From Algoriphagus sp. TR-M9 (GTDB taxonomy: Bacteria > Bacteroidota > Bacteroidia > Cytophagales > Cyclobacteriaceae), in NCBI RefSeq assembly GCF_027594545.1, contig NZ_CP115160.1, positions 4,398,501-4,462,500 of the forward strand: a stretch of 64,000 nt of DNA. Direction: 5' to 3'. Below, piece by piece: positions 3,743-17,092 of the stretch. Under the pieces are notes generated by a model, which was given only the letters and a program-made list of their open reading frames with translations, did not search any database and was not told the DNA's origin. The position numbers and the translations under genes were made by a program. How positions within the stretch are numbered: position 1 is the first letter of the stretch; each line of letters opens with the position of its first letter.

Positions 3743-4213
3743 ATGAAGAGAGAAGAAACGGTCGATTACCATATCAAAAGTGCCTGGCATGCGATTTCCA
3801 GAATGTACAATCAACAGGCAGCTGAGGAGGGGTTTACCACGGCGATAGGCTTTGTGCTGATCAATATCAATTCCACTGAGGGAACTCCAGCCACCAAAAT
3901 CGCCCCAAAACTGGGTCTAGAGACCAGAAGTCTGACCCGCATGCTCAAAACTATGGAGGAAAAAGGCCTGATTTACAAAAAGCCCGATCTGGTGGATAAG
4001 CGTTCGGTACGCATTTTTCTTTCCGAAGAAGGAAAGCGAAAAAAAGCCATCTCTATCAATACCATCCGGGAATTCAACGAGCAGGTGCGTGAAGTAGTGA
4101 GCGAGGATGACCTCGATCGTTTCTTTACCGTATTTGAAAAGATCCAACTTGTGATAGATCAGATCCAAACGGATAAAGGAGTAGATATTCACAAACCAAT
4201 ATTTGAATTATAA
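3743..4213 (+). CDS. MarR family transcriptional regulator
   Basis: This 156-residue winged-helix protein has the MarR layout. An N-terminal dimerisation helix is followed by the helix-turn-helix (about 47-77, with KLGLETRSLTRML as recognition region) and a wing with DKRSVRIFLSEEG (about 84-97). C-terminal helices complete the dimer. It sits between the acyl-CoA ligase and the hydroxyacyl-CoA dehydrogenase gene, 43 bp ahead of the latter and on the same strand. The simplest reading is a local repressor of the fatty-acid degradation genes that responds to acyl-CoA or a related ligand. Family assignment is firm; target and ligand are inferred from position. Palindromes just upstream suggest autoregulation. 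Confidence 0.88.
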   Translation: MKREETVDYHIKSAWHAISRMYNQQAAEEGFTTAIGFVLININSTEGTPATKIAPKLGLETRSLTRMLKTMEEKGLIYKKPDLVDKRSVRIFLSEEGKRKKAISINTIREFNEQVREVVSEDDLDRFFTVFEKIQLVIDQIQTDKGVDIHKPIFEL

Positions 4214-4256
4214 ACCAACACAACCACGAGGTTAATATGACCAAAAGCCCAAAATT

Positions 4257-6662
4257 ATGAACAGAACCATTAAAAAAGTAGCCATTTTAGGTTCGGGAGT
4301 TATGGGGTCTAGAATTGCCTGCCACTTTGCCAATATAGGGGTGCAGGTACTTTTGCTAGACATAGTGCCTTTCGAACTGACAGAACAGGAAAAGAACAAA
4401 GGACTGAGCAAAGAGGATCCAGTGGTGCGAAACCGCATGGTTAATTCAGCTTTGCAGAGCACCTTGAAGTCCAATCCCTCGCCTATTTACGACAAAGCAT
4501 TTGCGGAGCGGATTTCGACCGGGAATTTTGACGACGACTTGCACAAAATCAAAGATTACGATTGGGTAATGGAGGTGATTGTTGAAAGACTCGATATCAA
4601 GCAATCACTTTTTGATAAAGTAGAAAAGTATAGAAAACCGGGAACACTGATTACCTCAAATACTTCGGGAATACCTATGCATATGATGTGCGAGGGAAGA
4701 TCAGAAGATTTTCAGGAGAATTTCGCTGGAACTCACTTTTTCAATCCACCGAGATATCTGCGCTTATTGGAAATCATACCAGGCCCGAACACAAAGCCGG
4801 AAATCATTGATTTTCTGATGGAATATGGAGATAAATTCCTCGGCAAAGAGACCGTACTTTGTAAAGATACGCCCGCCTTTATAGCCAATAGAATCGGGGT
4901 TTATGCGATTATTTCTGCAATGCATACCATAGAAAAAATGGGTCTAGGCGTTTCAGAAGTGGATAAATTGACCGGCACGGTGATAGGACGAGCCAAGTCC
5001 GCGACCTTCCGAACCATGGACGTGGTAGGCTTAGATACTACGGTCAATGTGGCCAATAATCTATACAAGGTTTTACCAAATGACGAGTCACGGGAAAAAT
5101 TCAAACTTCCAAAAATCATGGAAGTGCTCTATGAGAAGAAATGGCTAGGTGATAAGACTGGATCCGGATATTTCAATATGATCCGCCATAAAGATGGCTC
5201 TAAGGAATTAAAGGAAATAGACTTTGAGACCTTTGAATATAAGGATGTAGAAAAACCCAAGTTTAAAGCCTTAGAATCTGCCAAGGAATTTGAGGATCTG
5301 AAAAAGCGAATCAAACATCTGGTTAATTTCGATGATAAAGCAGGTGAATTCTACCGTGCAACTTTTTATGATCTCTTTAGATACTGTTCATTCAGAATTC
5401 CAGAAATCGCAGACGAACTATTCAGAATAGATCAGGCGGTCAGCGCAGGATTTGGCTGGGAACTCGGACCTTTCGAAAACTGGGATTTACTCGGTGTGAA
5501 GGAGACTGCGGAGAAAATGGAAGCTGCTGGAGAAAAACCGGCTGCTTGGGTTTATGAAATGCTCGAAGCCGGAAATGAAGCCTTTTACAAAGTAGAAAAT
5601 GGCAAGAAACACTTCTACGACATTGCGAGCAAAAGCTACAAGGAAGTTCCTGGAATGGATGATTTTATCATTTTGGACACGCTGAAATCTGCCGGAAAGG
5701 AAATCTGGAGCAATGCTGGTGCCTCCATCTATGATATGGGTGATGAGGTGATCGGATTGGAATTCCATAGCAAAATGAACTCCATGGGCCAGGAAGTGAT
5801 CGAAGGAATCAATACTGCAATCGGAATGGCTGAGAAATCCTACAAGGGACTGGTAATCGGAAACGAAGGTGCTAATTTCTCTGCCGGAGCCAATCTGGCC
5901 ATGTTATTTATGTTTGCTGGAGATCAGGATTTTGATGAAATCAATCTGATGATTGCCCAGTTCCAAAATACCATGATGCGGGCGAGATTTTCGGCTGTAC
6001 CGGTGGTAGTGGCTCCTCACAACATGGCACTTGGAGGCGGATGTGAGCTTTCCCTTCACTCTGACCACGTGCAGGCACATGCAGAATTATACATGGGTTT
6101 GGTGGAAGTTGGCGTCGGTTTGATTCCAGCTGGAGGAGGTACTAAGGAGATGACCTTGAGATTTTCCAATGCTGTGAAATCCGGTGATGTAGAGCTGAAT
6201 CGCTTGCAGGATACCTTCATGAATATTGCCATGGCCAAAGTGTCCACCTCTGCAGAGGAAGCGAGGAATTTGGGTTATTTGAGAAAGTCAGATGGGATCA
6301 CCCTGAATAGAAAGCGTCAGTTGGCAGAAGCTAAGTCTAAGGTCCTTTCCTTGCATGAAGCGGGCTATACCCAGCCGATTGAGCAAACGGATATTCGTGT
6401 ACTTGGCAAGGAATCGTTAGCACTCTTTGAAGCGGGAATCACCGGGATGAGGTATGGGGCATATATCTCAGAGCACGACGCTCTGATCGCTAAAAAACTA
6501 GCCTATGTAATGTCTGGTGGGGATTTGTCCTCGCCAACTGAAGTTTCTGAGCGATACTTATTGGACTTGGAGCGTGAGGCATTCTTGAGCTTGACTGGAG
6601 AGAAGAAAACGCTGGAGAGAATTCACAGTATTTTATTCAAAGGAAAACCATTAAGGAATTAG
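4257..6662 (+). CDS. 3-hydroxyacyl-CoA dehydrogenase / enoyl-CoA hydratase fusion (FadN type)
   Basis: This 801-residue bifunctional enzyme covers the hydration and NAD-dependent oxidation steps of beta-oxidation. The N-terminal dehydrogenase has a Rossmann GSGVMG (12-17) and the THFFNPP segment with the catalytic histidine near 160. A second 3HCDH-type helical region follows. The crotonase domain is C-terminal, with GANFSAGANL (about 536), ALGGGCELSLH (about 590) and GVGLIPAGGG (about 617). Dehydrogenase first and hydratase second is the order of Bacillus FadN rather than E. coli FadB. The downstream order thiolase then acyl-CoA dehydrogenase also matches the fadN-fadA-fadE operon, except that a four-helix-bundle gene separates each pair. 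Confidence 0.93.
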   Translation: MNRTIKKVAILGSGVMGSRIACHFANIGVQVLLLDIVPFELTEQEKNKGLSKEDPVVRNRMVNSALQSTLKSNPSPIYDKAFAERISTGNFDDDLHKIKDYDWVMEVIVERLDIKQSLFDKVEKYRKPGTLITSNTSGIPMHMMCEGRSEDFQENFAGTHFFNPPRYLRLLEIIPGPNTKPEIIDFLMEYGDKFLGKETVLCKDTPAFIANRIGVYAIISAMHTIEKMGLGVSEVDKLTGTVIGRAKSATFRTMDVVGLDTTVNVANNLYKVLPNDESREKFKLPKIMEVLYEKKWLGDKTGSGYFNMIRHKDGSKELKEIDFETFEYKDVEKPKFKALESAKEFEDLKKRIKHLVNFDDKAGEFYRATFYDLFRYCSFRIPEIADELFRIDQAVSAGFGWELGPFENWDLLGVKETAEKMEAAGEKPAAWVYEMLEAGNEAFYKVENGKKHFYDIASKSYKEVPGMDDFIILDTLKSAGKEIWSNAGASIYDMGDEVIGLEFHSKMNSMGQEVIEGINTAIGMAEKSYKGLVIGNEGANFSAGANLAMLFMFAGDQDFDEINLMIAQFQNTMMRARFSAVPVVVAPHNMALGGGCELSLHSDHVQAHAELYMGLVEVGVGLIPAGGGTKEMTLRFSNAVKSGDVELNRLQDTFMNIAMAKVSTSAEEARNLGYLRKSDGITLNRKRQLAEAKSKVLSLHEAGYTQPIEQTDIRVLGKESLALFEAGITGMRYGAYISEHDALIAKKLAYVMSGGDLSSPTEVSERYLLDLEREAFLSLTGEKKTLERIHSILFKGKPLRN

Positions 6663-6702
6663 TAGCAAGCTATAAGTATCAAGTATCTAGACACAAGTAT
6701 CA

Positions 6703-7095
6703 AGAACCAAGAATCAAGATTTAACCTAAAATTAATTGTCATGCATAATTTCAAGAATTTAAAAGTTTGGCAAAAGTCGGTAGATCTGGCTGTTAAAATC
6801 TATAAGATTACTTCTGAATTTCCTGTTTCAGAGAAATTTGGAATGACTTCTCAGATGCGTAGAGCAGGCGTTTCTATTCCTTCAAATATAGCTGAAGGAA
6901 CAGCAAAATCATTTTCTAATTCGCTAGAAATCAGTTTGGGAGAAAGCTTTGAATTAGAAACTCAAATGATTATAGCAGAAAGGGTTAATCTAATTTCAAA
7001 TGAAACAGCTCAACAATTAGAAGCTGATATTTCTGAAGTTCAACGAATGATCCTAGGCTTTAAAGCAACACTCACTACTTAGAATTCTTGGTTCT
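6703..7095. repeat. IVP cassette A: CAAG-rich flanks with 12-bp inverted repeat around a four-helix-bundle gene
   Basis: The 12-mer AGAACCAAGAAT at 6703-6714 reappears as its reverse complement at 7084-7095, bracketing the small ORF at 6741-7082. The left flank from 6663 is low-complexity, built of words such as AAGTATCAAG, TAGACACAAG and CAAGAATCAAGATT. The right flank contains the opposite-strand words. A second cassette with the same design lies after the next operon gene. The arrangement is visible in the sequence; that it is a transposable or RNA-processed unit is inference. Confidence 0.55.
6741..7082 (+). CDS. four-helix bundle protein (23S rRNA intervening-sequence protein family)
   Basis: This 113-residue, mostly helical protein carries the family signature SQMRRAGVSIPSNIAEG (about 37-53) followed by a FELETQM-type helix. 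Members were first seen encoded inside intervening sequences of 23S rRNA genes, and the same fold is used by Avd, the accessory protein of diversity-generating retroelements. Neither rRNA nor a reverse transcriptase is nearby here. The gene is wedged between two beta-oxidation genes on the same strand. It has its own repeat-rich flanks, which suggests a later insertion. Its molecular role is not established. A paralogue lies at 8397-8759. Confidence 0.9.
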   Translation: MHNFKNLKVWQKSVDLAVKIYKITSEFPVSEKFGMTSQMRRAGVSIPSNIAEGTAKSFSNSLEISLGESFELETQMIIAERVNLISNETAQQLEADISEVQRMILGFKATLTT

Positions 7096-7132
7096 GAAAT
7101 CTTGGCTCTAACAATCTAAAAAATAATAATCA

Positions 7133-8308
7133 ATGGAAGCATATATAGTAAATGGATATAGATCGGCGGTCGGAAAAGCCAAAAAAGGTGGATTCAGGTT
7201 TTATCGCCCAGATGATTTGGCAGCGGATGTAATCAAACACCTGGTGGCCAACACCCCAGGTTTGGAAACCAAAATGGTGGATGACCTCATCGTGGGAAAT
7301 GCTGTTCCAGAAGCGGAACAGGGAATGCAAATGGGACGGATGATTTCTCTGCTAGCACTCGGAGTGGAAAATCCTGGATTTATCGTGAACCGGTATTGTG
7401 GTTCAGGGATCGAAGCAATTGCATTGGCAGTGGGAAAAGTAAAGGCCGGAATGGCAGACTGCATTATTGCCGGAGGTACAGAATCCATGTCTATGGTACC
7501 CATGATGGGCTATAAAACCGTTTTGAATTACAAAATCGCTACCGAGCACCCTTCCTATTACATCAGTATGGGATTGACTGCTGAAGAATTGGCTGCAGAA
7601 TACAGCATCACCAGAGAGGATTCAGATGCTTTTTCTGTGAAATCTCATGAGAAAGCTATTGAAGCGATTAAGTCTGGCAAATTCAAAGATGAGATCGTTC
7701 CTGTAGAAGTCGAAGAGACTTATCTGGATGAAAAGGGCAAAAAGAAAACCAGAACCCAAATCATCGATACAGATGAAGGGCCTAGACCTGGGACTACTAT
7801 GGAGGTGCTGTCTGGCCTTAAGCCGGCTTTCAAAAATAAAGGCCAGGTGACAGCCGGAAATTCATCTCAAACATCAGACGGGGCAGCATTTGTAGTGGTG
7901 ATGTCAGAGCGACTGATGAAATCACTAAATCTAGAGCCTGTGGCCCGAATGATGTCTTACAGTGCGGCGGGAGTGGATCCTAGGATTATGGGAATCGGTC
8001 CAAAAGAAGCTGTGCCAAAAGCATTGAAGCAGGCAGGGTTGAGCTTGAATGATATAGACTTGATCGAGCTGAATGAGGCTTTTGCTGCACAAAGTCTAGC
8101 CGTAATCAAAGCCCTGGACCTCAATCCAGAGATAGTCAATGTCAATGGTGGAGCAGTAGCACTAGGACACCCACTTGGATGTACCGGAGCGAAGCTTTCC
8201 GTTCAAATGTTCAATGAACTCCGACGCCAGAACAAGAAATATGGCCTTGTCACTGCATGTGTAGGCGGTGGTCAGGGTGTTGCTGGAGTTTATGAATTGT
8301 TGAAATAA
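7133..8308 (+). CDS. acetyl-CoA C-acyltransferase (thiolase, FadA type)
   Basis: This 391-residue thiolase cleaves 3-ketoacyl-CoA to acetyl-CoA and a shortened acyl-CoA. The nucleophile Cys89 lies in NRYCGSGIEAI. His346 lies in GGAVALGHPLGCTGA and Cys376 in CVGGGQG, completing the catalytic set. Length is typical of the degradative class. It is the third step of the pathway encoded by this block. An acetyl-CoA acetyltransferase acting only on C4 substrate would look similar, but the company of a FadN-type enzyme and an acyl-CoA dehydrogenase favours beta-oxidation. The gap to the upstream four-helix-bundle gene is 50 bp. Confidence 0.92.
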   Translation: MEAYIVNGYRSAVGKAKKGGFRFYRPDDLAADVIKHLVANTPGLETKMVDDLIVGNAVPEAEQGMQMGRMISLLALGVENPGFIVNRYCGSGIEAIALAVGKVKAGMADCIIAGGTESMSMVPMMGYKTVLNYKIATEHPSYYISMGLTAEELAAEYSITREDSDAFSVKSHEKAIEAIKSGKFKDEIVPVEVEETYLDEKGKKKTRTQIIDTDEGPRPGTTMEVLSGLKPAFKNKGQVTAGNSSQTSDGAAFVVVMSERLMKSLNLEPVARMMSYSAAGVDPRIMGIGPKEAVPKALKQAGLSLNDIDLIELNEAFAAQSLAVIKALDLNPEIVNVNGGAVALGHPLGCTGAKLSVQMFNELRRQNKKYGLVTACVGGGQGVAGVYELLK

Positions 8309-8327
8309 GTATAAAGACATAAGACGC

Positions 8328-8778
8328 TAGACATAAGACAATAGAGTCTAGCGCAAGTCTAACCTTTATGATTGTTCCATTTTAACTATATCAATCATGC
8401 ACAATTACAAAGAACTATTCGTCTGGAAAAGAGCAATTAAATTATGTGTTCACATTTATAAGCTAACCGCAGATTTTCCCAATGAGGAAAGATTTGGCTT
8501 GATTTCTCAGATGCGAAGAGCTTCGGTTTCTGTTCCTTCAAACATTGCTGAAGGTGGAGGAAGAAGGACAGATAAGGAATTTGTGCATTTTCTTGGAATA
8601 GCCCATGGTTCAATTTGCGAACTGGAAACCCAACTCTATGTAAGTGTAGAATTAGAGTTTACTGATTTCGATAAAATTGATTTCGTCACAAACGAAATCA
8701 CTGAAATACAAAAAATGCTTTATGCTTTGATACTAAAGTTCGATTCGAAATTGAGTTAATTCTAGTGTCTTATGTCTA
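8328..8778. repeat. IVP cassette B: 20-bp inverted repeat (18/20) around a four-helix-bundle gene
   Basis: The 20 bases at 8328-8347 and the reverse complement of 8759-8778 agree at 18 positions, including the unbroken 13-mer TAGACATAAGACA. The right arm begins at the last base of the small gene's stop codon. The left flank also holds a second AGACATAAGAC-like copy at 8315-8325 and GTCTAGCG at 8346-8353. The word family matches the flanks of cassette A and short stretches near 38781-38818 and 57608-57632. Pairing of the two arms would loop out the small ORF, as in rRNA intervening sequences. Confidence 0.6.
8397..8759 (+). CDS. four-helix bundle protein (23S rRNA intervening-sequence protein family), second copy
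   Basis: This 120-residue paralogue of the 6741-7082 product has the signature SQMRRASVSVPSNIAEG and a matching CELETQLY helix. Outside these motifs the two proteins differ widely, so they are not a recent tandem duplication; they look like two independent arrivals of the same kind of cassette. The gene sits between the thiolase and acyl-CoA dehydrogenase genes, on the same strand, with an inverted repeat at its borders. Family assignment is firm and function unknown. Expression would presumably come from read-through of the fad transcript unless the flanks carry a promoter, which I could not identify. Confidence 0.9.
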   Translation: MHNYKELFVWKRAIKLCVHIYKLTADFPNEERFGLISQMRRASVSVPSNIAEGGGRRTDKEFVHFLGIAHGSICELETQLYVSVELEFTDFDKIDFVTNEITEIQKMLYALILKFDSKLS

Positions 8779-8796
8779 AAGTCTAACTTCTAAAAT

Positions 8797-10584
8797 ATGG
8801 CTACAAAATCAACCCAAGGAGGAGAATTCCTCATCAAGGAGACAGATGCGCAAGACATCTTTATCCCAGCAGAATTTACTGAAGAACAGCGAATGATGGC
8901 TCAGGCCTGTCAGGATTTTATCGACACCGAAATTACGCCTTATGCGCAAGAGATCGATAGCATGAAAGACCCAGACCTTGTTCCTCGCATTTTCAAAAAA
9001 GCCGGAGATCTGGGGCTTTTGGGAATTACCGTTCCAGAAGAATATGGGGGAATGGGAATGAGTTTCAATACTTCCATGCTGATTGCAGATATCATCGGTG
9101 CAGCAGGTTCATTTTCCACTACCTACGGAGCTCACACAGGAATCGGTACCCTGCCGATTTTGTATTATGGAACAGAAGATCAAAAGAAAAAATACCTCCC
9201 AAAGCTCGCCACAGGTGAATGGGCGGCATGTTATTGCCTTACTGAACCAGACGCAGGTTCGGATGCCAATAGCGGAAAAACCAAAGCTAGACTGTCTGAA
9301 GATGGAAAAACCTACCTTCTTAACGGGCAGAAAATGTGGATTTCCAATGCAGGATTCGCAGATCTATTTATAGTTTTTGCCAAAATCGAAGACGATAAAA
9401 ACCTGACTGCCTTTATCGTAGAAAAATCTTTTGGTGGCATCACCATGAATGAGGAAGAGAAAAAGATGGGTATAAAAGGATCTTCTACCCGTCAGGTTTT
9501 CTTTAATGATTGCCCGGTTCCTGTGGAAAACATGCTTTCTGATCGTCAGAATGGTTTCAAAATCGCCGTGAATATCCTCAATATAGGAAGGGTAAAACTC
9601 GGCGCCGGTGTACTCGGAGGCGTACGTACCGTTACTACAAATGCCATCAAATATTCCACAGAACGCAAGCAGTTCGGTGTTAGCATCAATTCCTTCGGTG
9701 CGATCAAGTCCAAACTGGCCGAAATGGCGACCCAGTCCTATGTGTCTGAAGCACTTTGCTACAGAGCTGGACAGGATATTGAGAATAAAATCTCTGCCCT
9801 CGAAGCTGATGGAATGGATCCATCTGAAGCCAAATTAAAAGGGGTTGAGGCTTTTGCCATAGAGTGTGCTATCGCAAAAGTGCAGTGCTCGGAGGTGCTG
9901 GATTACGTGGTCGATCAGGGCGTTCAGATTTATGGAGGAATGGGCTATTCTGCAGATGCACCAATGGAACGCGCTTATCGTGATGCCAGAATATCCAGAA
10001 TCTACGAAGGCACCAATGAAATCAACCGCATGCTGATGGTGGGAATGCTTTTGAAGCGTGCCATGAAAGGGGAGATCAATATTTTCGATCCAGCGATGGC
10101 CGTATCCAAAGAACTTACTTCTGTTCCTTCCTTTGAGACCATAGATACTTCTGAGCTCTTTGCAGCGGAAAAAGAGGTGCTGAAAAAACTGAAGAAAGTA
10201 TTCCTGATGGTAGGTGGAAAAGCTGCGATGGCACTTCAGGATAAAATCGAGGATGAGCAGGAAATCATGATGAACCTCGCTGATGTGATGATAGAAATCT
10301 ACGCGAGCGAATCTGCGATTCTCCGTACAGAAAAACTGGTGTCCATGAAAGGGGAAGATGCCTGCAAAAATCAAATAGCAATGGCTCAGATTTACCTCTC
10401 TGAAGCAGTGGACAAAATCAATGTCGCAGCTAAAGAGGCGATAGGTAGTTTCACCAAAGGTGATGAGCAGAAGGTAATGCTTATGGGCCTAAAGCGATTT
10501 ACCAAATCGGAGCTTTATAACACCAAGGAATTGAGAAGGCAAATCGCTGATTATATGATTGATCAGGGAAAATATCCATTCTGA
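8797..10584 (+). CDS. acyl-CoA dehydrogenase (FadE type, long form)
   Basis: This 595-residue flavoenzyme performs the first oxidation of acyl-CoA to trans-2-enoyl-CoA. Acyl-CoA dehydrogenase blocks appear in order: YGGMGMSF near 85, the FAD/substrate strand CYCLTEPDAGSDANS near 145, MWISNAGFADLF near 180, and the C-terminal IYEGTNEINRM, whose Glu404 is the expected catalytic base. About 170 extra C-terminal residues form a further helical domain, as in Bacillus FadE and VLCAD-like enzymes. It is the last gene of the fad block, and no terminator directly follows it. An electron-transfer flavoprotein partner is not encoded in this window. Confidence 0.93.
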   Translation: MATKSTQGGEFLIKETDAQDIFIPAEFTEEQRMMAQACQDFIDTEITPYAQEIDSMKDPDLVPRIFKKAGDLGLLGITVPEEYGGMGMSFNTSMLIADIIGAAGSFSTTYGAHTGIGTLPILYYGTEDQKKKYLPKLATGEWAACYCLTEPDAGSDANSGKTKARLSEDGKTYLLNGQKMWISNAGFADLFIVFAKIEDDKNLTAFIVEKSFGGITMNEEEKKMGIKGSSTRQVFFNDCPVPVENMLSDRQNGFKIAVNILNIGRVKLGAGVLGGVRTVTTNAIKYSTERKQFGVSINSFGAIKSKLAEMATQSYVSEALCYRAGQDIENKISALEADGMDPSEAKLKGVEAFAIECAIAKVQCSEVLDYVVDQGVQIYGGMGYSADAPMERAYRDARISRIYEGTNEINRMLMVGMLLKRAMKGEINIFDPAMAVSKELTSVPSFETIDTSELFAAEKEVLKKLKKVFLMVGGKAAMALQDKIEDEQEIMMNLADVMIEIYASESAILRTEKLVSMKGEDACKNQIAMAQIYLSEAVDKINVAAKEAIGSFTKGDEQKVMLMGLKRFTKSELYNTKELRRQIADYMIDQGKYPF

Positions 10585-10710
10585 TTTATAGCTGATCGAT
10601 TGCAACATCTTCGCTCAGTCATCAAAAATAAATAGCCTTGATTCGGTTGAGACCAAAGGAAATCCAGCTACATTGACGGTATTCAGTTTCACCTTTTCCC
10701 ATTTCGAATC

Positions 10711-10824
10711 ATGGCTAAGCAACCAGAAGGAAAACCTAAAAATGACAAGTCTCAGCCGACCAAAACGCTGAAGGAAAAGCGAGCCGCCAAAGCCGCAAAA
10801 AAGGAAAGTAAAAAAAGAGATTAA
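10711..10824 (+). CDS. small highly basic protein, 37 residues
   Basis: This short ORF has an ATG start and a good intrinsic terminator 8 bp after its stop. The product is almost entirely charged, with many Lys/Arg/Ala and a KTLKEKRAAKAAKKE segment predicted to be helical. It has no signal peptide or hydrophobic stretch. Such short basic proteins recur in Bacteroidota genomes without assigned function; a nucleic-acid or ribosome partner is possible but unproven. It sits alone in a 473-bp gap, and the remaining bases of the gap (10585-10710 and 10862-11040) hold nothing else I can recognise. The dedicated terminator supports it as a real gene. Confidence 0.6.
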   Translation: MAKQPEGKPKNDKSQPTKTLKEKRAAKAAKKESKKRD

Positions 10825-10832
10825 CCATCAAG

Positions 10833-10861
10833 CAGGAGCCAAAAGCTCCTGTTTTTTTTTT
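10833..10861 (+). terminator. intrinsic terminator after the small basic protein gene
   Basis: A stem CAGGAGC / GCTCCTG (10833-10839 and 10845-10851) with a 5-nt loop is followed by ten T residues. This is a textbook rho-independent terminator on the plus strand. Confidence 0.88.
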
Positions 10862-11044
10862 AATCTAGTTGAGCCTATGCTTATCTACCTTCAGCTTTTA
10901 TAGACTAGGTTGGAGAGGCATTTCTTTAGAGTGGGGCTAACTAGGCAGGGACTATAATTGCTCACCACCACTTCATATACAGTAAGTTTCAAAACCAAAA
11001 AACGGACCTAATGGTAAGATAAAGCATCTTTTTCTCAAAAAACA

Positions 11045-15796: not shown

Positions 15797-17092
15797 TTGT
15801 GCTATCTATTTCAAAAAGCAGATTTGAACAAGCAAACCATTTTTCGATATCTCCTCCTCTGGATAGTTTTAGGTCTATTAGTCGGATTGTTATCTGGCTC
15901 TGCCTCAGCGATCTTTCTTATTGCGCTCAGCTGGGCCACTACTTTCAGAGAAAATCACCTTTGGATCATCGCTTTGCTTCCGATCGCAGGGCTAATTATT
16001 GGGTGGACGTACTATAAATATGGGGAAAATTCGGTGAAGGGAAACAACCTGCTCCTGGATGAGCTCTACCAAAGTGAAAAGCCAATACCCCTCAGAATGA
16101 CGCCCTTGGTACTTCTGGGGACGGTTTTTACGCATTTATTTGGAGGATCTGCGGGACGGGAAGGCACTGCGGTGCAAATGGGTGGATCCCTAGCGGACCA
16201 GCTGACCAAATGGTTTTACTTGGAAAAATCTGATCGGAGAATTATTTTGATTGCAGGGGTTTCCGGAGGATTTGCATCGGTTTTTGGAACTCCGCTGGCT
16301 GGCGCCATTTTCGCCTTGGAATGGATGCTTCATCGGAAAGTACGTTGGAAATCATTCTTTCCAGCCTTTTGGACGGCATTTGTGGCAGATTATGTCTGCA
16401 AAGATCTATTTGGTGTGGGGCATACGCATTACCTGGTAGAAATGGTACCTCCTCATACTTTCATGAACCTGCTGTGGATTATTCCTGCTGGAATAGCCTT
16501 TGGTTTTTCTGGGAGATTATTTGCCCAATGCAATCATTTTTTTTCCCATCAATTTTCGAAACACATTTCTTATCCCCCGCTTCGTCCGGTCATAGGTGGA
16601 CTATTTATAGCAGTATTTGTATTCATTTCGGACAGTACCACTTATATAGGTCTGGGTGTTCCCCGGATTCTGGAGGCTTTCGAAACACCCTTGCCCTGGT
16701 ACGATTGGTTGGTCAAAACCGGCTTGACCAGCTTTACCTTAGGCGCTGGGTTTAAGGGCGGAGAAGTTACGCCCTTGTTCTTCACCGGAGCTACACTTGG
16801 CAATGCGCTTTCGGCTTGGGTCCCTTTGCCCCTTGCCTTGTTAGCGGGGATGGGTTTTGTGGGAGTTTTCTCAGGAGCTACCAATACCCCTCTGGCCTGC
16901 ACCGTGATGGGGATGGAACTATTTGGTTACGAATCGGGCCTATTTTTGGGAATTGCCTGTGTGATCGCCTACCTTTTCAGTGGTAAATCTAGTATTTATA
17001 CCTCTCAGCATTTAGAGCATAAATTTCATTTAAACCCCTTAGATTGGTTAATGGAATTCAGAAGGAAGCAAAATGGGGGTAATAAAGGCTAA
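15797..17092 (+). CDS. ClC family chloride channel / H+-Cl- antiporter
   Basis: This 431-residue polytopic membrane protein has ClC signatures: GSAGREGTAVQMG near 115-127, with the gating glutamate in GREGT, GFASVFGTPLAGAIFALE near 155-172, and FKGGEVTPLFFTGA near 318. It lacks the C-terminal CBS pair, as bacterial ClcA-type proteins do. No in-frame ATG exists upstream of the first membrane segment. The frame opens after a stop at 15755, and the likely starts are TTG at 15797 or TTG at 15824. It is followed 17 bp later by the TrkH gene, so chloride and potassium movement may be co-expressed. Confidence 0.9.
   Translation: MCYLFQKADLNKQTIFRYLLLWIVLGLLVGLLSGSASAIFLIALSWATTFRENHLWIIALLPIAGLIIGWTYYKYGENSVKGNNLLLDELYQSEKPIPLRMTPLVLLGTVFTHLFGGSAGREGTAVQMGGSLADQLTKWFYLEKSDRRIILIAGVSGGFASVFGTPLAGAIFALEWMLHRKVRWKSFFPAFWTAFVADYVCKDLFGVGHTHYLVEMVPPHTFMNLLWIIPAGIAFGFSGRLFAQCNHFFSHQFSKHISYPPLRPVIGGLFIAVFVFISDSTTYIGLGVPRILEAFETPLPWYDWLVKTGLTSFTLGAGFKGGEVTPLFFTGATLGNALSAWVPLPLALLAGMGFVGVFSGATNTPLACTVMGMELFGYESGLFLGIACVIAYLFSGKSSIYTSQHLEHKFHLNPLDWLMEFRRKQNGGNKG

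Follow-up and report, generated by a model that had tools for sequence, protein, structure and literature searches.

The 64-kb stretch of DNA analysed here (the window) belongs to the genome of Algoriphagus sp. TR-M9, a single contig of 4.82 Mb, and carries two genes of the IVP family (PF05635, 23S_rRNA_IVP) within a fadN-fadA-fadE operon. IVP-A fills the fadN-fadA spacer and IVP-B the fadA-fadE spacer, both co-directional with the host genes. The arms that flank these two open reading frames (ORFs) are tandem arrays with a period of 7 nt, the key feature overlooked in a first-pass annotation of the same DNA, and arrays of this period surround most of the IVP genes that we sampled, with words that differ from site to site. 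We read the two units, here called cassettes A and B, as hairpin cassettes resembling the intervening sequences (IVSs) of rRNA, situated in an operon mRNA and with an array that is perhaps bound by a pentameric IVP ring. The evidence for the anatomy is strong; that the unit is processed, bound by IVP or mobile is an inference. The probability that we assign to this reading is about 0.45.

Period-7 arrays around IVP genes

With one locus taken per site group, a period-7 array accompanies the IVP gene in 59/75 groups, compared with 0-10 groups at other lags; the first-pass annotation had proposed looking for flanking repeats around other family members, and in this form they recur. An array was called where a 220-nt flank on either side of the IVP ORF contained a self-match of at least 18/28 at lag 7, and lag 14, a multiple of 7, was excluded from the counts for other lags. 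Sample 1 consisted of 80 IVP copies, 11 from Algoriphagus sp. TR-M9 (our interpretation, after merging, of 13 PF05635 matches in that genome) and 69 from relatives, the latter being a first set of 29 and a further 40 taken in listing order from among the matches listed, with flanks unseen and two rows near contig starts skipped. Sample 2, the named loci, comprised the best 80 of at least 506 confirmed loci ranked by likeness to IVP-B, and it overlaps sample 1, with 37/80 named loci at common sites, 29 of these at fad junctions. Sample 3 comprised 28 loci on viral contigs, including 5 flagged duplicates and three near-identical ones. A set of 29 loci from the Candidate Phyla Radiation (CPR) was used ungrouped, and controls inside the ORF and in the outer flanks were run on the two 80-locus samples only. 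The 188 loci of samples 1-3 were merged on homologous flanking DNA or flanking proteins into the 75 site groups; this joins loci with homologous neighbours on either side and errs towards too few groups. By flank DNA homology alone, the 80 copies of sample 1 collapse to 38 sites; one cluster in this grouping (L004 with L134 and L136) is possibly a false link.

In sample 1 an array was present on at least one side of 64/80 copies (other lags 0-8), while lag 7 gave 0/80 inside the ORF and 2/78 at 320-540 nt upstream; 31 of the 38 sites had an array. The named loci gave the same count, 64/80, with controls of 0/80 (ORF) and 0/77 (320-540 nt upstream). Arrays were found at 25/28 viral-contig loci, 21/29 CPR loci and 9/14 of the named loci judged by title to lie outside the Bacteroidota (5/14 had none), the titles of those with an array including Acidobacteriaceae, Nevskia, Micavibrio, Zobellella, Nostocales, Lacunisphaera and Microgenomates.

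When 82 arrays were phased (one locus per site group, downstream arrays reverse-complemented), the unit showed an AG core (A 0.83, G 0.86) and a profile of 3.09 bits in all, compared with 2.33 +- 0.07 after shuffling of the column order; the ungrouped set has the consensus TNAGWNN. AG occurs in at least 60% of the units in 30/39 upstream arrays, read on the sense strand, and in 33/43 downstream arrays, read on the antisense strand. The arrays have a median length of 36 nt upstream and 33 nt downstream and mostly hold 4-5 units, values that vary with the cut-off. Most of the 11 Algoriphagus sp. TR-M9 copies are flanked by an array on one or both sides, and the word is particular to each (AAGTACA, AGACATA, CAAGTAT, CCATAGC, GGTCGAA, TTAACCC, GTTGTCG, AATTAAG, AAGACCG and others); the flanks of the fragment L010 contain none. 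A terminal repeat family shared by the copies, which the first-pass annotation had envisaged, was rejected. Inverted flank scores within this genome are 10-25 at the own locus and mostly 8-14 across loci, the exception being L008, whose long AATTAAG array scores 22 and 26 against two others; the words are site-specific, and what is common is the period of 7 and the AG core.

Two larger repeats were observed beside IVP genes. A repeat roughly 90 nt long that includes GACCCGAAGCGACACACAGAGGGATG lies between genes downstream of L010 (near 718.5 kb of the Algoriphagus sp. TR-M9 genome) and again at L087 near 8600, where it adjoins a 7-nt array. At L137 (G025:C63), AAAAAAATC-like spacers interrupt the array and create a higher-order unit whose copies on the two sides run in the same direction (direct score 79).

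Matching of the two sides and the fad cassettes

Inverted similarity between the two flanks, assessed with 200 dinucleotide shuffles per locus, reached p <= 0.01 at 21/38 sites and 52/79 named loci (1/80 was too short), as against 1/37 and 1/76 for the outer flanks. Direct similarity was found at 9/38 sites and 8/79 named loci, and with one locus per site group the inverted and direct counts were 35/56 and 13/56. Over the 38 sites the own-locus inverted scores sum to 765, compared with 439 +- 23 when permuted (0/100,000 permutations reach 765), and the direct sum is raised too (627 vs 405 +- 19). At the five non-AG positions of the unit, the own sides gave 3.30 expected matches and sides of different loci 1.56 (0/20,000 permutations), as measured on the 31/118 loci where each side carries an AG-phased array.

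The two arms have also changed together across species, since own-arm scores exceed cross-species scores at one and the same junction. At fadN-fadA the own upstream arm scored 17.8 against the own downstream arm and 13.0 against those of other species (25 loci; 0/20,000 permutations), and at fadA-fadE the corresponding values were 15.0 and 11.7 (16 loci; 14/20,000). Restriction to the named loci gave 16.0 vs 12.1 (13 loci; 4/20,000) and 15.1 vs 11.4 (13 loci; 12/20,000), respectively. Pairing of the arms is the simplest cause of this joint change.

The cassettes of the window show the same layout (Table 1). The first-pass annotation had described four-helix-bundle genes at both junctions of fadN-fadA-fadE, each bracketed by an inverted repeat, and both points are borne out: the two ORFs are PF05635 members, and the repeats, 12/12 in cassette A (6703-6714 with 7084-7095) and 18/20 in cassette B (8328-8347 with 8759-8778, the right arm meeting the ORF stop at 8757-8759), exceed chance (p 0.005 each, 200 shuffles per locus) and extend over the arms as tabulated. 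The downstream arm of cassette A is weak at lag 7 (14/28). Tandem Repeats Finder (TRF) returned 8 rows for the window; 5 of them are cassette flanks (3 arrays) with periods of 7, 14, 21, 14 and 14, and a row away from the cassettes, 15808-15834, likewise has a period of 14. The flanks had further been said to share CAAG/TAGACATAAGAC words. Both words are units of 7-nt arrays, and period and AG core are common to the two cassettes, but the words themselves differ, with CAAGTAT/CAAGAAC in cassette A and AGACATA in cassette B.

The computed RNA fold of cassette B has an energy of -122.9 kcal/mol (z -3.92; 0/100 shuffles as good) and that of cassette A -100.8 kcal/mol (z -1.98; 3/100 as good), and in the minimum-energy and centroid structures of both the arrays close a loop that holds the ORF. 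Of the IVS-like arrangement in mRNA proposed at first pass, the ORF in an inverted-repeat stem loop within an operon spacer is thus retained, and common terminal repeats are not. The upstream flank of cassette B also contains a local 8-bp inverted repeat, CGCTAGAC/GTCTAGCG (8325-8353), which could compete with the long-range stem.

Table 1. Features of the fad operon and of cassettes A and B, in window coordinates.
Feature	Position	Strand	Evidence
fadN-like gene (3-hydroxyacyl-CoA dehydrogenase/crotonase), upstream host gene	4257..6662	+	Pfam 3HCDH_N/3HCDH/ECH_1
Cassette A upstream 7-nt-period array (units AAGTATC, AAGAACC, AAGAATC)	6663..6719	+	TRF; lag-7 score 20/28
Cassette A upstream array, TRF rows	6661-6718 (period 7), 6680-6719 (period 14), 6674-6718 (period 21)		
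Cassette A ORF, IVP-A, 113 aa	6741..7082	+	PF05635/TIGR02436
Cassette A downstream arm, reverse complement of 6688-6714 (27 nt, 78%)	7084..7110	+	Repeat search; TRF 7082-7109 period 14
fadA (acetyl-CoA acyltransferase), host gene separating cassettes A and B	7133..8308	+	ORF, profile matches
Cassette B upstream array (AGACATA AGACGCT AGACATA AGACAAT)	8315..8345	+	TRF 8315-8345 period 14; lag-7 17/28
Cassette B ORF, IVP-B, 120 aa, four-helix bundle	8397..8759	+	PF05635/TIGR02436; AlphaFold2; Foldseek
Cassette B downstream array, matching the upstream one in inverted form (31 nt, 81%)	8761..8794	+	Repeat search; lag-7 20/28
fadE (acyl-CoA dehydrogenase), downstream host gene	8797..10584	+	ORF, profile matches

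With neighbour orientation judged from the longest open frames, 39 of the 75 site groups lie between two co-directional genes in sense and 8 in antisense (p 6e-6); the two mixed settings account for 13 and 8, and 7 were left unassigned. The ungrouped named set gave 67 sense and 2 antisense placements of 80, figures that are inflated by common sites. This bias, though not absolute, points to expression of the unit from the host transcript and to a role within it. At one further site in Algoriphagus sp. TR-M9 (L006, G000:C1:1360900-1361214), the IVP gene lies just upstream of what reads as a putative type I restriction endonuclease gene.

Our proposal is that a cassette would be a PF05635 gene flanked by two inverted arrays of one 7-nt word, placed mostly in sense in operon spacers and presumably co-transcribed with the host genes. 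On the transcript, pairing of the arrays would form a stem about 30 bp long that encloses the IVP ORF in its loop and would be a likely substrate for cleavage by RNase III. Recognition of the AG-spaced 5' array is probably the role of the IVP pentamer, with perhaps one unit per subunit, and the bound ring would control stem formation, processing or its own expression. Such a unit may have spread as a selfish element or may serve its host.

Several observations weigh against this proposal. No array was found in 16/75 site groups, and at the cut-off used both sides carry one in only 35/80 copies of sample 1 and 38/80 named loci. AG is rare in 9/39 upstream and 10/43 downstream arrays, and the measured array length is dependent on the cut-off. 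Inverted similarity at p <= 0.01 is missing in 21/56 site groups, and the 13/56 with direct repeats include the striking case of L007 (G000:C1:2631689-2632003), where GTTGTC-type arrays are direct and not inverted (direct score 48, inverted 10). Joint change is weak within the genus, with 2/6 clusters by alignment (p 0.020 and 0.017) and 1/6 by duplex energy, and where it occurs it could also be explained by separate re-insertions with different words or by copying between arms. Antisense and divergent placements occur (8 groups each). Finally, a published abstract on the IVS in Coxiella rRNA indicates, as far as its accessible text goes, that the S23 protein is not produced there.

The IVP protein, its sites and alternative explanations

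IVP-A and IVP-B match PF05635 with 118.4 and 132.3 bits (cut-off 33.8) and TIGR02436 (four helix bundle protein) with 111.8 and 131.3 bits (cut-off 24). The AlphaFold2 model of IVP-B (mean predicted local distance difference test score 96.4) has as Foldseek matches 2gsc (XCC0516; query template modelling (TM) score 0.86-0.92) and 2rld (0.78-0.81), entries of five chains each, the title of the 2gsc paper likewise speaking of five four-helix bundles. The IVP ORF is under purifying selection, the ratio of nonsynonymous to synonymous substitution rates having medians of 0.17 at sucB-lpd (16 pairs), 0.08 at fadN-fadA (8 pairs) and 0.07 in a further single pair. PF05635 matches occur in 33/38 genomes of the order (own included) and in 86/145 CPR genomes, and four CPR genomes of about 0.8-1.1 Mb (G088, G108, G110, G141) have the very high density of 10-11 matches each.

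The fadN-fadA junction holds an IVP gene in 25 loci and the fadA-fadE junction in 17 (one being a second fetch of one place). Besides Algoriphagus, these loci represent genera including Pedobacter, Salegentibacter, Epilithonimonas, Belliella, Maribacter, Roseivirga and Raineya, and their words are plainly different. The fad junctions of the named Bacteroidota (L153-L226) look like either a phylum-wide hot spot or the home of a very old resident. Empty alleles, for which the first-pass annotation had suggested a search, exist as well. Among 21 readable same-genus fadN-fadA loci, 12 hold an IVP gene and 9 do not, the latter divided equally between plain spacers (25-43 nt), spacers with a short heptamer array only (61-67 nt) and ORF-less composites (128-178 nt). 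At fadA-fadE, 20 loci could be tested: 3 hold an IVP gene, in 2 the IVP-B ORF survives as its 3' end plus the adjoining downstream sequence, 4 have a plain spacer (33-49 nt), and five further ones were seen by eye to hold short ORF-less heptamer hairpins (L015 in G016, L022 in G022, L023 in G023, L024 in G009 and L028 in G004). These hairpins, also present in the upstream flank of L011, have an ATTC-type first arm and a GAAT-type second arm, the reverse of the polarity of most IVP flanks, and are possibly miniature derivatives. Outside the genus, nine loci were inspected; fadN adjoins fadA in five of them, and none of these five has an IVP gene.

The best surviving alternative, which we consider unlikely, is that IVP and arrays form a domesticated regulatory module, a mostly vertical post-transcriptional switch of host operons with little mobility. 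Its orthologues are indeed tied to a site, with IVP-B (at least 77% identity) always at fadA-fadE (10/10 copies in the genus); 13 named loci have an IVP gene at fadN-fadA and 14 at fadA-fadE, spread over many genera of the Bacteroidota, in a set picked by IVP-B likeness; and the ORF is under the purifying selection described above. For the small mobile element of the first-pass annotation the evidence is indirect: empty alleles exist, but IVP-B is attached to one site within the genus and the same fad junctions are occupied in many other Bacteroidota. Recent hopping of IVP-B within the genus was not found. A vertical switch is at odds with the patchy distribution, IVP-B being present in 10/72 genus genomes (own included) and an IVP gene at only 3/20 fadA-fadE loci, and with decay, an internal stop occurring in 9/80 copies. 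G017, a genome of the same genus (5.0 Mb, rated 100% complete), has no PF05635 match at E <= 0.001 and offers a natural IVP-free control.

Somewhat less probable is a transposable element acting at the DNA level, in which the arrays would be end sites for IVP or for a recombinase supplied in trans and RNA pairing would be incidental. It would account for arrays on both sides, for the IVPs in viral contigs (28 loci) and for the behaviour of the words. Between site groups, word similarity is 4.70/7 at >=70% protein identity (19 pairs), 3.64 at 60-70% (94 pairs) and about 3.4 below 50%; within a single locus the two flanks reach 5.29 (85 loci). With words permuted among loci, a value as high as that of the 119 pairs with 60% identity or more arose in 3/5,000 permutations. 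As an example, a Nostocales locus and a viral contig have GCAGAAG-type units in both and IVPs that are 83% identical. This rise with protein identity gives modest support, from sequence comparison, to a unit that carries its arrays along, whatever the route; the 19 pairs stem from few families, and some may represent one site with diverged flanks. A strict code of one word per protein clade was rejected (Mantel r 0.24, p 5e-5, 33 sites). For DNA ends, moreover, the sense bias of 39 vs 8 and the polarity of AG are unexpected, and joint change at one site would be unneeded if the ends were bound separately. In both cassettes the arms enclose a single ORF of 70 aa or more, the PF05635 gene, and no transposase, and the 11 Algoriphagus sp. 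TR-M9 copies are at most 52% identical to each other.

A lower probability again goes to the idea that heptamer arrays or hairpins were there beforehand as host repeats outside the unit and served as insertion hot spots for IVP genes. Arrays do occur outside IVP loci, at 7 per 400 kb in Algoriphagus sp. TR-M9, and the array-only fadN-fadA alleles (3/21) and the ORF-less hairpins at fadA-fadE point the same way; phylum-wide occupation of the fad junctions with different words is also what repeated insertion would produce. Bare arrays can, however, be relics, because in two species the IVP ORF persists as its 3' end along with the following sequence, and there are array-free empty alleles (25-49 nt). 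The IVP-free G017 has few arrays, 3 per 383 kb, which is no more than at some other lags, though 7 per 400 kb is not far off, and the notion that such a relative lacks arrays holds only in part; with a stricter cut-off the counts are 0 in G017 and 3 in Algoriphagus sp. TR-M9. The density is 6 per 400 kb in G032, two of these being IVP flanks by their coordinates, and two more genomes without IVP have 2 and 0 per 200 kb, with 0-3 at other lags throughout, lag 14 apart. Coincidence, in the form of low-complexity spacers and chance inverted repeats near a common gene, could draw on a background of 10 and 11 of 80 named loci and 10 and 8 of 75 groups at lags 8 and 16, and is refuted by the site-group count at lag 7 together with the near-zero position controls.

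Relation to known systems and significance

In 23S rRNA IVSs, as in cassettes A and B, a PF05635 ORF lies within a stem loop formed by terminal inverted repeats, and the distribution is sporadic. The Coxiella IVS has a stem of 28 bp, and mobility of IVSs is a published hypothesis (PMC4990558); IVP within rRNA insertions of CPR has likewise been published (PMC11270868). Unlike the rRNA IVSs, cassettes A and B occupy spacers of a protein operon, and their arms are arrays of 7-nt period with site-specific words. Rfam detected no rRNA at 4000-11000 of the window, nor in 79 fetched IVP loci (three places twice; 40/80 named loci covered), where one tRNA was the sole match.

The fold of IVP-B is also like that of Avd of diversity-generating retroelements (4dwl, TM 0.83; 8ube, a complex with the reverse transcriptase, 0.79), whereas the NF033474 scores of IVP-A and IVP-B, 24 and 22.5 bits, lie below the cut-off of 80. 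No reverse transcriptase ORF is present in cassettes A and B, and the search for one was confined to them. From insertion sequences and DNA transposons the cassettes differ in that no transposase lies between the arms and the terminal repeats are not constant among copies, and we know of no transposon rule that explains end sequences which are site-specific yet change jointly on both sides.

Heptameric repeats themselves have been described before. Tandem heptamers occur in Nostoc and Xanthomonas and are over-represented in bacteria without having received detailed study (PMC4692102), intergenic 7-nt arrays are found in Beggiatoaceae (TAACTGA), cyanobacteria and some Bacteroidetes (PMC4679880), and Geobacter has 7-nt arrays in sets of four and of five units (PMC2700814). 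As far as the accessible text of these papers goes, they deal with a single word or a handful in each genome and mention no IVP/S23 partner, with 0 occurrences of the terms 'S23' and 'four helix' in PMC4692102 and PMC4679880; IVP flanks, by comparison, have a word per site and lie on both sides of a gene. In the open literature, most subscription journals being outside its coverage, we found no publication that ties IVP to 7-nt repeats.

The trp RNA-binding attenuation protein (TRAP) is a ring protein that binds regularly spaced RNA triplets (NAG repeats). We use it as a working analogy in principle for the proposed binding of IVP; TRAP is an unrelated protein with another spacing.

Taken together, the observations might be joined into a broader reading, which as a whole we regard as doubtful. 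The PF05635 genes of bacteria, CPR and phages would be the protein half of a two-part unit with a self-complementary heptamer code; a pentameric ring would read about five AG-spaced 7-nt units on RNA; the unit's word, changing in step on both sides and faster than the protein, would define its stem; and the excess of 7-nt tandem repeats in bacteria would be largely debris of such units, the rRNA IVS being the case that landed in rRNA. In the text available of PMC4692102, heptamer repeats are generally without association with insertion sequences or transposable elements, which counts against the debris idea for those repeats.

IVP/S23 genes are common, and the family is described as uncharacterised in those parts of the papers and structure entries that were consulted. 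The link with period-7 arrays offers a candidate partner for both the protein and the heptamer repeats, together with a concrete hypothesis of binding and processing, and the pattern may connect the orphan 'intervening sequence' genes with the puzzling abundance of seven-base repeats in bacteria.

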